From positions 1,550,001-1,614,000 of the forward strand of contig NZ_CP078078.1 of assembly GCF_023101205.1 (NCBI RefSeq): 64,000 bases of DNA, given 5' to 3'. The number at the start of each line of letters is the position of its first letter. Position 1 is the first letter of the stretch. The position numbers and the translations under genes are program-made. Below, in pieces: positions 577-10,516 of this stretch. Under the pieces are notes generated by a model. That model was not told the origin of the DNA. It made no database searches and saw only the letters and a list, made by a program, of their open reading frames with translations. The stretch comes from Microbacterium aurugineum. Its GTDB lineage: Bacteria > Actinomycetota > Actinomycetes > Actinomycetales > Microbacteriaceae.

Positions 577-614
577 GTCCCGGGGTGAGAGATTCGCCCC
601 GTGAAAGGCGAAAC

Positions 615-1852
<1,238 letters not shown>

Positions 1853-1856
<4 letters not shown>

Positions 1857-2548
1857 GCCAGGCGAACGACGGCAAGGCACTCGAGACGAGCGTCGACGGC
1901 ACGAGCTACGCGCGCATCCCGCTGCGCACCCGCGTGGTCATGCCTGAGGACGACCTCGACGCGATCATCACGGAGTATGCGAAGGATGCGGTGCAGCCGG
2001 GCGACCTGCTGTTCGTGACCGAGAAGATCGTGGCGATCACCCAGGGGCGGTCGTACCGTCTCGACGAGATCAAGCCGCGCAAGCTCGCGCTGTTCCTCTC
2101 GAAGTACGTCACGCGCACGCCGTACGGGATCGGACTCGGCATGCCCGAGACGATGGAGATGGCGCTCCGCGAATGCGGCACGCCCCGAATCCTGTTCGCG
2201 TCCGCCGTGGCCGCCGTCACCAAAGCGTTCGGTCGCCGTGGTGACTTCTACCGCATCGCGGGTGACAAGGCGCGTGCCATCGACGGTCCCACCAAGCACA
2301 CGATCCCGCCCTACAACGAGGCGGTCGTGCTCGGACCCAAGGACCCGGATGGCGTCGCCGCTCGGCTGAAGGCGTTGATCGGTGGCCAGGCAGAGGTCGC
2401 CGTCGTCGACATCAATGACCTGGGTGGCAACATCCTCGGCTCGACGCTCGACAAGAACGGTGAGCACCGGCTCGTGAAGATCCTCGGTGACAACCCGCTC
2501 GGTCAGGGACTGGAGTCCACGCCGCTCGGGATCGTCCGCGCGGTCTGA
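1853..2548 (+). CDS. coenzyme F420-0:L-glutamate ligase-like protein
   Basis: A 231-residue protein of the CofE/FbiB N-terminal (F420_ligase) family, which in F420 producers adds gamma-linked glutamate to F420-0 using GTP. Supporting features are the N-terminal PLRTRVV..DDL, the early [12 protein letters not shown] segment, and [13 protein letters not shown] followed by LGDNPLGQ near the C terminus, which resemble the nucleotide/metal-binding parts of the fold. It is translationally coupled to sigA (start ATG inside the sigA stop region). No other F420 biosynthesis gene is visible here, so a role in F420 tailing is unproven and it may ligate glutamate to something else. Confidence 0.75.
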
Positions 2549-2610: not shown

Positions 2611-3627
2611 TCAGAAGCCGATGACCTCGCGGTAGCGCGGCTTGTGGCCGGTGCGGATGCCGGTCACGCTGGGCTTGTTCTCGTACACTCCGGCTCCCCA
2701 GTTGCCCTCGACGAGAACGGGGCCGTCGGGGGAGACCACGATGTCCCAGCCCACGTACTGCACCTGCGGCACGACGCGCGCGACGTCGTCGATGAAGGCG
2801 CGAACCTCCTCCATGTACGGCAGCTGGAAGTCGGCGATGCGGAAGCCGGAATCCGGATGCGTCTCGTGCACATGTCCGTGGGAGTCGTACCCGGCGCCGA
2901 TCGCGTGCCCGTTCTGGTCGAGCATCGTGTAGAAGCCGCCGAAGGTCATCTGGTCGCTGACAGCGCCACGGCCGAACTTCTGCGCGATCGCGAGGATGTG
3001 CGCTTTCTCACCGTCGAAGAAGGCGGTGATGCGCGTCGTGTTCACGGTGCCGGGGCAGACGGCGGCCAGGGCGTCGTGCTGCCGGATCACCTCTTCGATG
3101 AGGAGCTCGCCGCGGTCCAGCAGTCCGCGATGGAACTCGTCCCAGTCGTCGATGTCCGCCGCGTGATAGCGATGCACACCGGTTCCCGCCTGCCCGACCG
3201 GCTCCTTCGTGACGATCGTGCCGAGGCGCTCGGTCAGCTCGCGCACCGCGTCGGCGTTGCCTTCCTCGACCGTCATCCACTCGCGTTTCAGGAAGGGGGA
3301 GAACTGCTTGTCGAACTCGACCTTGTCCTGGAAGATCCAGCGGTAGTCAGGGTGGTCGAATCGCTGCGAGAGCTGGTTCGACACGGGGTGGGTCATGTAG
3401 GTCTCGCGCTCCGCCTTGGTGAGCATGGCGAAGTCGTAGTCGATGTAGTCCTGGAACCCGACGTTGTGCCGGGCCGCGGACCAGAGCATGTCGACGACGA
3501 TGGCAGGGACGGCCTTGTGGTGCTGTTCCGATGCCTCCTTGGCCCGTTCCACCACCGATCCGACGTCGATGCGGCGAGCACGTCCCAGCAGGTAGCGGAT
3601 GCGGGGCGCGAGGGAAAGACGAGACAT
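2611..3627 (-). CDS. sugar-transfer-associated ATP-grasp family protein
   Basis: A 338-residue ATP-grasp protein. The central part carries the nucleotide-binding signature (TIVTKEPVGQAGTGVHRY, then ELLIEEVIRQHDAL), and the C-terminal part the metal-binding end of the fold (GWDIVVSPDGPVLVEGNWG, with E and N as likely Mg ligands). This most resembles the sugar-transfer-associated ATP-grasp family found in cell-surface polysaccharide clusters; members are presumed to ligate a carboxylate to an amine or thiol. The substrate is unknown. It is divergent from the alanine-racemase-like pair, which hints at a cell-wall amino-acid role. A TAGACT -10 (reverse of 3654-3659) and a GGAG shortly before the ATG support the start. 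Confidence 0.8.
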   Translation of the reverse strand: MSRLSLAPRIRYLLGRARRIDVGSVVERAKEASEQHHKAVPAIVVDMLWSAARHNVGFQDYIDYDFAMLTKAERETYMTHPVSNQLSQRFDHPDYRWIFQDKVEFDKQFSPFLKREWMTVEEGNADAVRELTERLGTIVTKEPVGQAGTGVHRYHAADIDDWDEFHRGLLDRGELLIEEVIRQHDALAAVCPGTVNTTRITAFFDGEKAHILAIAQKFGRGAVSDQMTFGGFYTMLDQNGHAIGAGYDSHGHVHETHPDSGFRIADFQLPYMEEVRAFIDDVARVVPQVQYVGWDIVVSPDGPVLVEGNWGAGVYENKPSVTGIRTGHKPRYREVIGF

Positions 3628-3694: not shown

Positions 3695-3700
3695 TAGGGT
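3695..3700 (+). promoter_or_regulatory. -10 box of a leaderless promoter (racemase-like gene)
   Basis: TAGGGT lies 7 nt before the GTG at 3708, the spacing expected if transcription begins at the start codon. Confidence 0.55.
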
Positions 3701-3707
3701 GGAGGAC

Positions 3708-4418
3708 GTGTGTGAGACGACTTCCAGCGCCCTGCCTTTCGCGATGATCTCCCGCTCGGCGCTGGCGGCAGGCGCGTCGGCGGCAGTGCGCGCAGGCGGA
3801 CATGTCGCGGATCTGCGACGTGATGCCTGGGGCCACGGAATCCTCGCCGTCGCGCAGGCGGTGACCGCCGCCGGCGCCGAACGGGTGCTGGTCGATTCCG
3901 TCGGTGAGATCGAGGCGCTGCGGTTGGAGGGAATCGTCGGGGTGACCTCGGATGAGGCGGATATCGAACCGACTCTGCTCTACGGGCTGCCGGACGAGCA
4001 CGGAGTCCTCTCGACGCAGCCGGTGATGCGCCTCAGCGGCCGAGTGATGTCCACCAAACGTTTGCGCGCCGGGGATGCGGTGTCGTACGGATACACCTAC
4101 CGTGCGCCCGCGGAGACCACCGTGGCGTTGGTGACGGGCGGTTATGCGCAAGGGATCGTCCGTGCTCTCGGGAATCACGCACACGTCGACGTCGCCGGGA
4201 CGGCGCGACCCATCATCGGACGGGTCGCGATGGATGTCTGCGTCGTGGACCTGGAAGGCCCGGAGAGCGACATCGCGCCCGGATCGGAGGTCACCTATTT
4301 CGGTGGGTGGGGCGCGGCCAGGGCCGGAGTCGCCCGATGGAGCGCGATCACCGGGCTGACGGCGGCGGAACTCGTCACGGTCGCGGGCGCGCACGCTGTG
4401 CGGGGGTGGGAGGCATGA
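3708..4418 (+). CDS. alanine racemase C-terminal-domain protein with collapsed barrel
   Basis: A 236-residue relative of fold-type III alanine racemase in which most of the PLP barrel is gone. A vestige of the PLP loop remains (DLRRDAWGHG near residue 36), but arginine stands where the PLP lysine belongs in the usual VKADAYGHG. The sequence then jumps almost at once to TLLYG, the end of a normal barrel. The C-terminal beta domain is intact: AVSYGYTYRA, TGGYAQGIVR with the tyrosine at the catalytic position, and GRVAMDVCVVDL. The GTG at 3708 fits the leaderless TAGGGT box; 3699 and 3744 are alternatives. The stop overlaps the next gene's ATG. It cannot bind PLP by itself, so a partner role with the next gene is likely (inference). 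Confidence 0.8.
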   Translation: MCETTSSALPFAMISRSALAAGASAAVRAGGHVADLRRDAWGHGILAVAQAVTAAGAERVLVDSVGEIEALRLEGIVGVTSDEADIEPTLLYGLPDEHGVLSTQPVMRLSGRVMSTKRLRAGDAVSYGYTYRAPAETTVALVTGGYAQGIVRALGNHAHVDVAGTARPIIGRVAMDVCVVDLEGPESDIAPGSEVTYFGGWGAARAGVARWSAITGLTAAELVTVAGAHAVRGWEA

Positions 4419-5455
4419 CCCGCCCGCAGCTGCGGATCCGCAGTGACGTCTTCCGCGCGAACGTCGATGCCGTTCAGGCGCGGATCGCACCGTCGACCCT
4501 CATGCTCGTGCTCAAGGACGATGCCTACGGCCACGGGCTCGCGTGGGCGGTCGAGGCCGCGTCGAAGGCGGGCGTCGACTGGTTCGGGAGCTACGACATC
4601 GCGGGCGGCTCAGAGGTTCGGCGCGTCGTCGGAGGAGACGCGCGCATCTTCGCCTGGGCTACCTCGACGGACGCGGAGGTCGATGACGCTCTGCTGCACC
4701 GCATCGATCTCGGAGTCGGCACCGCCGAGTATCTGCGACGGATCATCGCCCGCGTGGAGGCGCTGGGCGCACGGGCGCGCGTGCACCTCAAGATCGACAC
4801 GGGCCTGCACCGCAACGGCATACTCCCAGAGGACTGGGCCGACGTCGTCTCCGAGGCCAGGGCCGCGGAGGCCGCAGGACTCCTCGAATTGGAGGGGGTC
4901 TGGAGCCACATCGCTGAGGCGAGCGATGCGGAGGACGACGAGGCGCAGGCAGTGTTCCTGGACGCCGTGCGAGTGGTGGGGGAGTCGGGTCCGGTTCCGC
5001 GCGCATTGCACCTGACCGCGTCGGCGGCATCCTGGTGGCGACCGGAGCTGCGTGGCTCGGTCTCGCGCATCGGAGCGTTCTGCTACGGCATCCGATCCGC
5101 GGACGGCCCGGACCTCGAGGGTGTGCGACCTGCAGCAAGCCTCGTCGCGACGGTCGTCGAGGTCGACGGTGATGATGCCGTGATCGCGATCGGCAGCTTC
5201 GACGGTCTCCCGTCGACCTTGGGCGGAGCGAGCGTGGGGACTCCCGGTGGAGCCCGAGTGCTCACCGCCGTGGGTCAGACGACGTCGATCGTCGACCGCT
5301 GGCCGGGAGCCCGGGTCGGCGACGAAGTGACGCTGTTCGGCGCGGGCGAATCCGGGGAGTCTTCCGCGACCACGCTCGCCGAGCGGATCGACACGGTCGG
5401 CGAAGAGATCCTCACCCGGCTCACCGCGCGAGTGCGCAGGGTAGTGATCGACTGA
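4415..5455 (+). CDS. alanine racemase-family protein with intact PLP barrel, degenerate C-domain
   Basis: A 346-residue fold-type III PLP enzyme. The barrel has the PLP lysine (LVLKDDAYGHG, near residue 34), the phosphate/carboxylate region KIDTGLHRNG, the barrel histidine in VWSHIAEASD, and RIGAFCYG at its end. The C-terminal domain has lost the normal catalytic signatures: GYADG is replaced by GSFDG, and the GRVxMD loop by GQTTSIVD. Alanine racemase active sites pair the barrel of one subunit with the C-domain tyrosine of the other, and the preceding overlapping gene (ATGA) supplies exactly that missing part. The substrate may be alanine or another wall amino acid such as ornithine; this cannot be decided from sequence. 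Confidence 0.85.
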   Translation: MTRPQLRIRSDVFRANVDAVQARIAPSTLMLVLKDDAYGHGLAWAVEAASKAGVDWFGSYDIAGGSEVRRVVGGDARIFAWATSTDAEVDDALLHRIDLGVGTAEYLRRIIARVEALGARARVHLKIDTGLHRNGILPEDWADVVSEARAAEAAGLLELEGVWSHIAEASDAEDDEAQAVFLDAVRVVGESGPVPRALHLTASAASWWRPELRGSVSRIGAFCYGIRSADGPDLEGVRPAASLVATVVEVDGDDAVIAIGSFDGLPSTLGGASVGTPGGARVLTAVGQTTSIVDRWPGARVGDEVTLFGAGESGESSATTLAERIDTVGEEILTRLTARVRRVVID

Positions 5456-5476: not shown

Positions 5477-5695
5477 TCAGACGGCTTCGATGAGACGCGC
5501 GGTCTCGTCGTGCCAGCTGGTTGCGACGCTGCGGAGCTTCTCTTCGTACTTGCGGCCGTGGTGAGCGCAGAACAGGAGCTCGGAGCCGTTCACCTCGGCG
5601 GCGATGTAAGCCTGCGCACCGCAGGAATCACAACGATCCATGGCGGTCAGGCGGAACTCGACGGTGGAGGTGTCACGTTCGGTCGTTGCGTTCAT
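5477..5695 (-). CDS. DUF7455-type small zinc-ribbon protein
   Basis: A 72-residue protein whose core DRCDSCGAQAYIAAEV and LLFCAHHGRKYE carries a CxxC plus CxHH set that probably binds zinc. Small proteins of this type sit beside parE/gyrB-like genes in many actinobacteria, and their function is unknown. The ATG at 5695 was chosen because AGGAGG lies about 8 nt upstream on the coding strand and the protein then starts MNATTERDT; longer in-frame extensions run over the parE start region and look non-coding. It is divergent from parE with a 181-bp gap. Confidence 0.85.
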   Translation of the reverse strand: MNATTERDTSTVEFRLTAMDRCDSCGAQAYIAAEVNGSELLFCAHHGRKYEEKLRSVATSWHDETARLIEAV

Positions 5696-5862
5696 CTCGG
5701 TGCCTCCTCGGGTGTCGGCTTCGCTTCGTGATTTGGTCAATACAACCACGCTGTACCTGTGTGCATGCCCGGTTTGCGGCGTGTTTCGCTCAGCGCGTAC
5801 GCGTGCGCCTCGGACTCGCTCCGCGTGGGGAGTGTCGGCAGCCCGAGCGGAGGTGGCGAGAA

Positions 5863-5868
5863 TAGACT
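5863..5868 (+). promoter_or_regulatory. -10 box of a leaderless promoter (parE)
   Basis: TAGACT lies 8 nt before the GTG at 5877, which decides that start over upstream in-frame codons. Confidence 0.55.
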
Positions 5869-5876
5869 CGGAGATT

Positions 5877-8015
<2,139 letters not shown>

Positions 8016-8074: not shown

Positions 8075-10516
8075 TCACACGATCGTGCGTCCGATGGTCC
8101 CGATCACACCGTCGATGGGCTGGCCGGAGGCGTCGCGACGGGCACCGGCCTCGGGGAGCTTGCGCACCGCACCGGTCGGGTCCACGGCCTGCGCCGGACC
8201 GGGGCCCACCCACGCGACCGTGAGCCGATCCTCGCCCTTCAAGAAAGCGTGCGCGCGCACGCCACCCGTCGCGCGCCCCTTGGCGGGGTACTCAGCGAAC
8301 GACGACACCTTCGCGCGACCCGGATCCGTTCCCGGCAGGATGCTTTCGCCGCCGGACACCGTGGCGACCACGGCATCGCTTGTCGGATCGACCACGCCGA
8401 AGAAGAGGACGGAGGTCCCGGGGCCGAGCTTGACCCCGGCCATACCTCCGGCGGGGGCACCTTGGGGACGTACCGATGACGAAGGGAAGTGGAGCAGCCG
8501 GGCGTCGGTCGTCACGAACACCATCTCGGAGTCGTCCGCTGCCTCCGCCGCGCCGATGACCGTGTCACCGGCCTTCAGGCCGATGACTTCGAGATCGGGG
8601 CGCGCGGAGAGTGAGGACGGAACGATGCGCTTCACCGTGCCCTGGGCGGTGCCGAGAGCGATCGGGATGTCGCTGTCGAAGCGCACGAAGCCGAGGACAC
8701 GCTCGTTCTTGGTCGTGATGCCCAGGTAGTCGCGCAACGGCGTACCGGCCGCCAACTGCACCGAGGAGGAGGGGACGGAGGGAAAGTCGACGGGGGAGAA
8801 CCGTACGACTCGGCCGAGACTCGTCAGCGCTCCGATCTCGGCGCGTACCGTGGTCTCGACCGTCGCGAGGATGGCATCGTGCTTGCTCCGACGCGCCGGA
8901 ACCGTGAGCTCCTGGCCCTCTCCGAGATCGACGCGCACGGCTCTGCCGGTGGTCGAGAGGACGAGCACCGTGGGGGCATCGGCGATCTGCAGGTCGACCG
9001 CGCCCTTGGTCGCCCGGGGCTTCGGGGGAGCCGCGTTCATCAGGAGCGTCCGGCGAGGTGTGCCGTAGGCGTCGGCAGCGGCATCCAGCTCTCTCGCGAC
9101 CGCCGCGCGGAGCAACACGGGGCTCCCGAGGAGTTCACGGAGCGAGGCGATCTCGGCCAGCAACGCGTCACGCTCGCTCTCGAGCTCGATCCGCGAGAAC
9201 TTCGTCAGGCGACGCAGCCGCAGCTCGAGGATGTACTCGGCCTGGAGCTCACTCAGATCGAACACCGAACGCAGCCGGGTGCGGGCCTGCTCGGAGTCGT
9301 CGGAGGAGCGGATGACCTGGATGACCTCGTCGATGTCGAGGATCGCGATGAGCAATCCCTCGACGAGGTGCAGGCGCTCCTCACGGCGCGCGAGACGGTA
9401 CCGGCTGCGCCGTGTGATCACCTCGAGGCGATGCCCGACGTAGACGCTCAGCATCTCCTTGAGACCGAGCGTGCGCGGCTGGCCCTCGACGAGCGCGACG
9501 TTGTTGATGCTGAAGGAGTCTTCGAGCGGCGTCAGGCGGTACAGCTGCTCGAGGACGGCGTTCGGGTCGAAGCCCGTCTTCACGCCGATGGCGACGCGCA
9601 GTCCATGGTTGCGGTCGGTGAGGTCGGTGACATCACTGATGCCCTGCAGCTTCTTCGCCTGTACGGCGTCGCGGATCTTCTCGATCAGACGCTCGGGCCC
9701 GACCATGTACGGCAGTTCCGAGACGATGATGCCGGTGCGCCGCGGGCCCAGAGGTTCGATGGACGTCTTGCCCCGGACCTTGAGGGCGCCACGTCCGCTC
9801 GTGTACGCGTCCTTGACGCCGTCCAGACCCATCAGGATGCCCCCGGAGGGGAAGTCCGGCCCGGGTACGAACTCCATGAGCTCTTCGGTCGTGGCGTCCG
9901 GATTCTCCAGCAGGTGGGTCGCCGCCGCCACGACCTCGATGAGGTTGTGCGGGGCCATGTTGGTGGCCATGCCGACCGCGATACCGCTGGCACCGTTGAC
10001 GAGGAGGTTCGGGAACGCGGCCGGCAGTACGGCCGGCTGCTGGAACTGTCCGTCGTAGTTCGGAATGAAGTCGACGACATCCTCATCGAGGTTCTCGGTG
10101 AGGGCGAGCGCGGCGGCGGCCAGTCGGGCTTCGGTGTACCGCGCGGCGGCCGGACCGTCATCCAGGGAGCCGAAGTTGCCGTGGCCGTCGACGAGCGGGA
10201 CGCGCAACGCCCACTCCTGGGCGAGGCGCACGAGCGCGTCGTAGATCGCGGAGTCGCCGTGGGGGTGGAGCTTCCCCATGACCTCACCGACGACGCGAGC
10301 GCTCTTCACATGGCCGCGATCCGGGCGCAGGCCCATCTCGGCCATCTGGTAGAGGATGCGGCGCTGGACGGGCTTGAGGCCATCGCGGGCGTCGGGCAGG
10401 GCGCGCGAGTAGATCACCGAATACGCGTATTCGAGGAACGAACCTTGCATCTCCGTGGAGAGGTCGATGTCCTGGATGCGCTCCTCGACGGGCTCGGGCG
10501 GCGGGGTTTTCGGCAT
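8075..10516 (-). CDS. parC: DNA topoisomerase IV subunit A
   Basis: DNA-cleaving subunit, 813 residues. The winged-helix region has [11 protein letters not shown], the quinolone-determining segment [14 protein letters not shown] (serine near residue 89 and acidic partner four residues on, the drug-sensitive arrangement), and the catalytic tyrosine near residue 127 in [11 protein letters not shown] coiled tower with [18 protein letters not shown] follows, and the C-terminal third has beta-pinwheel-like blades ([30 protein letters not shown]). No canonical GyrA-box was recognised, which fits ParC rather than GyrA. It is convergent with parE and divergent from the phosphodiesterase gene with 44 bp between starts. 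Confidence 0.92.

Follow-up and report, generated by a model that had tools for sequence, protein, structure and literature searches.

A gene pair of Microbacterium aurugineum very probably encodes a racemase that is built from two different chains. As judged from their sequences, the products of the two genes, here called S and L, would form an obligate heterodimer of the alanine racemase (Alr) fold with one composite active site. The two proteins have lost complementary sets of residues and are constantly found together. The window, i.e. the whole stretch of DNA analysed, comprises 64,000 nucleotides (contig NZ_CP078078.1, positions 1,550,001 to 1,614,000) and all coordinates of the following features refer to it.

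3699..4418, + strand: gene of the S subunit, an alanine racemase C-domain plus what remains of the barrel start (PF00842 only, E 5e-29)
3816..3818, + strand: codon R37 of S, at the place of Lys39, the lysine that binds pyridoxal 5'-phosphate (PLP) (alignment to the genome's own Alr)
4086..4088, + strand: codon Y127 of S in the motif VSYG, corresponding to the catalytic Tyr265 (alignment; Tyr265 in 90/90 S)
4415..4418, + strand: ATGA overlap of the S stop and the L start, both open reading frames (ORFs) intact
4415..5455, + strand: gene of the L subunit, 346 amino acids (aa), with a full PLP barrel and a C-domain without the Tyr265 loop (PF01168, E 8e-42)
4514..4516, + strand: codon K34 of L, the PLP lysine Lys39 (alignment; Lys in 92/92 L)
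4916..4918, + strand: codon E168 of L, position 169 (residue counts over L and over AlrB and AlrA, the complete enzymes of related tandem loci)
5402..5404, + strand: codon E330 of L, position 354, a substrate-gate residue that is Tyr in ordinary Alr (alignment)

Half-sites of S and L

S probably starts at GTG 3699, preceded by GGGAGGCGG (Shine-Dalgarno), giving 239 aa instead of the 236 aa from GTG 3708 (window 3708-4418). This start is preferred because of the placement of the Shine-Dalgarno sequence and a homologue of 239 aa that is 97% identical. Alanine racemases carry PF01168 and PF00842 in one chain. S has PF00842 alone, and L also falls short of this combination, its PF00842 match being weak and partial (40.6 bits, profile 34-126 of 127). 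Both proteins score under the 168-bit cut-off of the alanine racemase model TIGR00492 (S 99.7, L 123.3) and under the cut-off of 434 of NF009879, a broad-specificity racemase model printed as alanine racemase subfamily (53.8 and 38.1 bits, respectively).

Residues are numbered as in Geobacillus stearothermophilus Alr, with positions set by alignment to the window genome's own full-length Alr. By this numbering, we take the VSYG loop to be the carrier of Tyr265 and GYADG/GGYAQG to hold the entryway Tyr284. The two catalytic residues of Alr are Lys39 from one subunit and Tyr265' from its partner, and Tyr354 forms the substrate gate together with Tyr265' (PMC3485190). All 92 L but none of the 90 S have a complete barrel half-site (Lys39, Tyr43, Arg136, His166, Arg219), whereas the trans half-site (Tyr265, Tyr/Phe284, Met312, Asp/Asn313) is complete in 90/90 S and in 0/92 L. 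Full-length controls hold both (27/27 AlrB, 29/29 AlrA). No single Alr unit among the 92 L and 90 S holds both half-sites complete, and each of the nine natural fusions likewise keeps them in separate Alr units of its one chain.

Every one of the 90 S has the residues acting in trans, Tyr265, Met312 and Arg290. In L, Met312 is kept in 1/92 and Arg290 in 8/92, while the Tyr265 column is a gap in 86 and another letter in six; the sole Tyr in that column (L260) is the Tyr284 motif of that protein, misplaced by the aligner. The barrel contacts for PLP are retained in L, with K39, Y43 and R219 in 92/92 each and S204 in 86/92 (T in six), and L is an alanine racemase-like PLP fold-type III barrel. 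S ranges from 171 to 389 residues. In the longest (L275) the barrel is still recognisable (PF01168, E 1e-34), with Thr, Phe, Gln and Thr replacing Lys39, Tyr43, Arg136 and His166.

A sequence-only reading of the window had described two ORFs overlapping by ATGA, the first without most of the barrel and with Arg at the PLP-lysine position, the second with the Lys; all of this was borne out. It had also seen the catalytic tyrosine kept in S, which holds for Y127, but its choice of GYADG/GGYAQG as the motif of this tyrosine does not, as these belong to Tyr284. The complementarity is cleaner than had been stated, because the VSYG loop with Tyr265 is kept in S and deleted in L. The co-conservation of complementary residues that it suggested looking for extends to all S and L counted above.

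In the proposed enzyme, the L barrel would bear PLP on Lys39, and the C-domain of S would give the second catalytic base, Tyr265, plus the substrate-gripping Met312, Asp313 and Arg290. The mirror site, made of the S barrel and the L C-domain, is dismantled. The geometry of this complex is drawn by analogy from Alr homodimers. It is also conceivable that S donates no tyrosine and is a non-catalytic regulator of L or of an ordinary Alr, since dead paralogues that activate their partner exist, such as the trypanosome AdoMetDC prozyme (PMC5201418). We consider this improbable. S retains exactly the trans-acting residues that L has lost, and the loss of catalytic residues that characterises a prozyme is not what is seen in S. 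The regulator reading is weakened further because L without Tyr265 would miss one of its two bases.

Pairing, fusions and genomes without a complete Alr

In total, 299 Microbacteriaceae genomes were queried with S and with an L profile, and counts are among the matches listed. Usable regions (119) were fetched mostly by L-profile score, with six picked for a fusion in genus g21 and many lower-scoring L-profile rows left unfetched; the locus counts are no frequencies because of this choice. Together with the window, these regions comprise 79 S+L pairs, a double locus of two pairs, 27 AlrA+AlrB tandems of complete genes, three S-L fusions, six L-S fusions, two L alone and two single AlrA. The double locus (L271, genome G225) has its pairs about 3.5 kb apart, one of which was placed in the tree. 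L is present in 30 genera, the window being counted within its own genus. An S partner is adjacent or fused for 90/92 L in the fetched loci, and the two partnerless L (L203, L295) both lie at contig ends. Viewed from S, 39 of the 44 short S-like rows (frame under 330 aa, among the matches listed) have an L row at most 400 bases away. For the other five, L was found beside each on inspection, being partial at a contig edge in two. The S row of G066 has a gap of 11 bases to its L. Based on heuristic starts, S and L overlap by four bases in 60/79 S+L loci.

GTDB contigs were scanned with the L profile and the best 80 loci were kept. Fourteen of these combine an L without Tyr265 with an S immediately upstream, namely eight from Microbacterium, one each from Agreia bicolorata, Leifsonia aquatica and Gulosibacter sp. 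10, and three from metagenome-assembled genomes (MAGs) with the labels Microbacteriaceae, Micrococcales and Cellulomonadaceae. The reduced 0.9 Mb genome G015 has an S-L pair that is strongly diverged (L323:6725-8646), with Asn in L at the place of Tyr43. Beyond the family, 396 genomes of the order (E 1e-101) and 396 of the phylum (E 1e-96) were sampled, and matches turned up in 16 and six other genomes, respectively, with spans of 1,095-1,122 bases as in ordinary Alr. Eight of these loci were read by residue; all were complete, with Lys39, Tyr265 and Tyr354, and no split pair was seen among them, although diverged pairs such as those in the MAGs could score under these thresholds. Annotated homologues of the pair are labelled 'alanine racemase', and no two-component alanine racemase was found in the published literature by a search that reached few subscription papers.

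These data bear on two readings in which S has no function. If L alone were a one-base PLP enzyme (e.g. a lyase, aldolase or epimerase) and S a leftover, L would resemble other fold-type III enzymes that function without Tyr265. This is very improbable given that L lacks S only at contig ends, that S is under purifying selection and that fusions exist. The probability that the pair is a pseudogene or an assembly artefact of a broken alr is close to nil. S is indeed truncated relative to Alr, and in one of the eight Microbacterium loci named above, a MAG (L041, about 9323-10001), the S region matches in two frames, through a frameshift or an assembly error. Against this, S and L occur together throughout the 30 genera, with the four-base overlap in most adjacent pairs. 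In five pairwise comparisons within the genus, dN/dS was 0.15-0.31 for S and 0.15-0.25 for L, figures that are rough as dS (0.63-1.15) is mostly near 1. This indicates purifying selection on both genes, so that neither is decaying.

The natural fusions join the halves in both orders. The three S-L fusions belong to genera g85 and g74, and the six L-S fusions, all in g21, have Tyr354 and sit at the glmS locus; a Pfam scan covered three of the natural fusions. One of the natural fusions (L276) is 629 aa long. In g21, the fusion is the single S match per genome in 6/6 (among the matches listed) and, again in all six, by far the top Ala_racemase_N match (E 4e-36 or better, next best 3e-19). The weaker Ala_racemase_N matches are frames of 239-621 residues that are YggS- or decarboxylase-like by appearance only. 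In the three g21 genomes tested, the fusion holds every Ala_racemase_C (PF00842) match. The Agreia-type genus g78 has exactly four PF00842 stretches per genome (5/5), two in the pair at the sigma-factor locus and two at a second place. At this second place, L' has Lys39 and Tyr354 without Tyr265 and Met312, and S' has Tyr265 and Met312 without Lys39 (5/5); this pair adjoins glmS in the three genomes tested for neighbours. A D-Ala transaminase model scored above cut-off in 0/11 of the g21 and Agreia-type genomes and in 1/14 controls.

Because neither a complete Alr nor a D-Ala transaminase match above cut-off was seen there, the heterodimers of these genomes should make D-alanine, and both the fusion of g21 and the glmS-locus pair of the Agreia type are probably alanine racemases. 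Asymmetric enzymes would then be the sole Alr of some genomes, which speaks for a catalytically competent architecture. Fusions in both orders and genomes without a complete Alr thus support an obligate, active heterodimer. The heterodimer with a composite site had been proposed by the sequence-only reading, and pairing, residue counts, fusions and these genomes all speak for it; a case of one gene without the other, which would have told against it, was not found among the fetched loci. A separate ordinary alr, which it suggested looking for, is present in the window genome, which has two further full-length Alr, and no complete one was found in the g21 or Agreia-type genomes tested.

Substrate, neighbouring genes and wall chemistry

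For the window pair itself, we consider it rather probable that the substrate is a basic diamino acid (ornithine, or diaminobutyrate (DAB) in relatives) that is racemised for type-B peptidoglycan cross-links. This reading is based on acidic residues at positions 169 and 354, on neighbours of peptidoglycan-ligase type and on the pattern of presence and absence. An acidic residue occupies position 169 in 86/92 L (the six g21 fusions have Gly) and in 27/27 AlrB, whereas 29/29 AlrA have N or G there. Position 354 in L is E or D in 85/92, Y in six (the g21 fusions) and a gap in one, with Glu in the window. According to PMC3485190, this position governs substrate choice, being Thr in Lyr, Ala in Bar and Asn in VanT.

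The same heterodimer might also be a second alanine (or serine) racemase, to which we assign a clearly smaller probability. Both the fold and the residues of the mechanism match Alr, and Tyr354 is retained in the fusion of g21 and in the glmS-locus pair of the Agreia type. However, the window genome already has its two full-length Alr, the window L combines E169 with E354, and most L are acidic at 354. In AlrTt, charged residues at the 354 site reduced alanine racemase activity (PMC4517790). Of the full-length Alr-like genes in the window genome, the second (L001, G000:C1:3200482-3204123) adjoins, by eye, frames like a D-Ala-D-X ligase and a response regulator, surroundings that recall a glycopeptide-resistance-type cluster.

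The diamino-acid reading also draws on the genes around the pair, which were compared over 41 loci (a locus from every genus, a second one from genus g1, and the window itself). In the window these are:

585..1856, + strand: primary-type sigma-70 factor, the conserved left neighbour (Pfam; context maps)
1853..2548, + strand: F420_ligase-fold protein (PF01996), in the place taken by a murT-type gene in 21/31 mapped S-L loci
2611..3627, - strand: ATPgrasp_ST amide-ligase-like protein, divergent from S (PF14397, E 2e-30)
5640..8015, + strand, true start about 5880: GyrB/ParE-type topoisomerase subunit, the conserved right neighbour (Pfam; context maps)

The S-L pair sits between the sigma factor and the gyrase-type genes. 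Beside the sigma factor, nine of the 31 mapped S-L loci (the window included) have an F420-ligase-like gene, some with an ATP-grasp gene, and one has neither this nor a murT-type gene within the mapped stretch; the group identity of the murT-type and F420-ligase-like genes comes from one scanned member of each. The scanned murT- and gatD-type proteins have MurT_C and GATase_3 over the Pfam cut-off, with MurT and GatD as best NCBIfam matches. MurT/GatD act on the carboxyl of D-Glu, the starting point of type-B cross-links. The position of the pair near murT/gatD-type genes or their replacements therefore points to cross-bridge synthesis. In L192, L196, L270, L272, others and the window, PF01996 and, in some, PF14397 genes stand where other genera have murT/gatD-type genes. 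It is possible that the F420-ligase-like and ATPgrasp_ST genes replace the latter for modifying the D-Glu of lipid II.

Within Microbacterium, L was found at E 1e-108 in 165/198 genomes. Twenty sigma-gyrB loci were fetched from genomes without an L match, 17 of them from the listed part of the genus search and three from the order and phylum samples; the incomplete G717 and G760 were omitted, and G750 was located only. Neither S nor L is present in any of these 20 loci, with the F420-ligase-like and gyrB genes in place in 20/20 and the sigma gene in 19/20. The number of ATP-grasp genes is two in eight loci, one in 11 and none in one. Where there are two (L331-L334, L343, L348-L350), they are codirectional and of ATPgrasp_ST type, perhaps another cross-bridge cassette. 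In 21 L-lacking genomes, there is one Ala_racemase_C protein in 19 and two in two. The main Alr copy is complete in all 21, with Asn169 and Tyr354, and so are the two additional copies (L372 of G719, L373 of G610), which have Arg/Ala and Gly/Gln at 169/354. None of the Alr read in these 21 genomes has an acidic residue at 169 or 354, and therefore no acidic-type racemase of the family was seen in L-lacking genomes.

The named close relatives of the one-ATP-grasp type include M. lacticum, M. laevaniformans and M. flavum, the walls of which we take to contain L-Lys. The named species of the two-ATP-grasp type are M. radiodurans, M. invictum and M. dauci, and Lys is given as the wall diamino acid of M. 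invictum (PMC10978784, Table 2). For the greater part, the named species closest to the L-lacking loci are probably of L-lysine type. M. testaceum carries the S-L pair and M. croceum has an S homologue; according to PMC10757982, the M. testaceum clade mostly has D-Orn and M. croceum has a D-Orn wall. For Herbiconiux, which has a complete AlrB, D- and L-DAB are reported (PMC10011130). Across named relatives, though not genome by genome, the presence of S-L suggestively fits the wall diamino acid.

Several points weigh against a diamino-acid substrate. The six g21 fusions combine Gly169 with Tyr354, and therefore the acidic signature is no feature of all heterodimers. The murT- and gatD-type genes score far under the NCBIfam cut-offs for MurT and GatD. 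E versus D at position 354 does not follow Orn versus DAB. An assignment of E354 to Orn and D354 to DAB was dropped, as Agreia has E, Herbiconiux and Leifsonia D and Microbacterium E, the wall types of Agreia and Leifsonia being presumed in this comparison. M. invictum, M. lacticum and M. laevaniformans were placed by relatedness. A possible conflict comes from M. radiodurans, reported with D-Orn next to two clade mates with L-Lys (PMC10757982), although its ATP-grasp genes, from which alone its class was taken, are of the class lacking S-L. A strict rule that the absence of S-L means an L-lysine wall fails on this species if that genome lacks S-L. Should the substrate be as proposed, the pair would name the racemase for the D-diamino acid of much type-B peptidoglycan, together with two candidate cross-bridge ligases alongside. 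Many of these genes may also be misannotated as 'alanine racemase'.

Evolution and comparison with known systems

Herbiconiux daphne and H. gentiana have two complete neighbouring genes in the order glmS-alrA-alrB-tsaE, and AlrB and L are alike in their acidic residues at 169 and 354. In locus L233 (7092-8765), a complete AlrB is fused to TsaE in one chain (Pfam); long frames also occur in L235, L258 and L262. In a barrel tree of 64 rows, AlrB and L, the g21 fusion excepted, form one clade (100/99). One subclade of 18 holds 16 L and two AlrB (100/99), with Glu354 in 16 and Asp in two, and a subclade of 23 holds 17 L and six AlrB (96/83), with Asp354 in 22 and one unread. Complete and degenerate members thus occur in each subclade, and a single clade of L without g21 was rejected (approximately unbiased test, p 0.019, quick tree). 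The architecture probably arose more than once. This fits poorly with a C-domain tree of 136 columns, in which all S fall into one group (SH-aLRT 94, not starred), a result that weighs against several origins of L. In both barrel subclades, the S-L pair lies at one conserved locus. The sequences would agree either with a single origin of S and repeated decay of L or with a more complex history. Restoration of Tyr265 in AlrB by gene conversion from AlrA was rejected, as AlrA and AlrB of one genome (Asp354 type) share about 46% identity in the N- and about 58% in the C-domain, a ratio close to that seen with outgroups (about 47% and 55%).

A wider scenario seems to us evenly balanced between right and wrong: at least three origins of obligate one-site heterodimers in the Microbacteriaceae (the barrel lineage with mostly Asp354, that with mostly Glu354 and the alanine-type at the glmS locus), with asymmetric enzymes as the only D-alanine source of some genera, the version at the sigma locus being a type-B D-Orn/D-DAB racemase, and F420-ligase-like and ATP-grasp proteins replacing MurT/GatD. 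These loci offer a graded natural series that begins with two complete enzymes in tandem and ends with a pair sharing one active site, with a partner of 389 down to 171 residues that is fused in places. Such a series allows direct tests of complementary loss after duplication, in an enzyme that is essential for the cell wall and also serves as a drug target.

Compared to Alr/DadX (EC 5.1.1.1, PLP fold-type III), S-L has the same fold, PLP lysine, tyrosine from the neighbouring subunit and domain order. Alr/DadX is a homodimer with two identical sites, whereas S-L would be two chains with one site, each lacking a half. Unlike S-L, VanT is membrane-bound and has both active-site halves in one chain. 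This serine racemase resembles L in the changed 354 residue of its Alr-type domain (Asn; PMC3485190). Lyr and Bar also share with L an Alr fold in which Tyr354 is replaced, a replacement that opens the substrate gate, but they are homodimers with Thr or Ala at 354 (PMC3485190), while L has Glu/Asp at 354 and 169. AlrB of Herbiconiux and relatives is like L in the barrel clade (100/99) and in D/E at 169 and 354, and differs in being full length, in having both half-sites and in lying at the glmS-tsaE locus rather than next to the sigma factor. One-site heterodimers or split chains can reportedly be active, as in engineered Alr heterodimers and a fragmentary B. stearothermophilus Alr, although no such paper appeared in our literature search; these are laboratory constructs, whereas S-L is a natural gene pair. 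Finally, the AdoMetDC prozyme system is, like S-L, a pair of paralogues of which one partner is catalytically dead alone. According to PMC5201418, that prozyme relieves autoinhibition, whereas S appears to donate catalytic residues.

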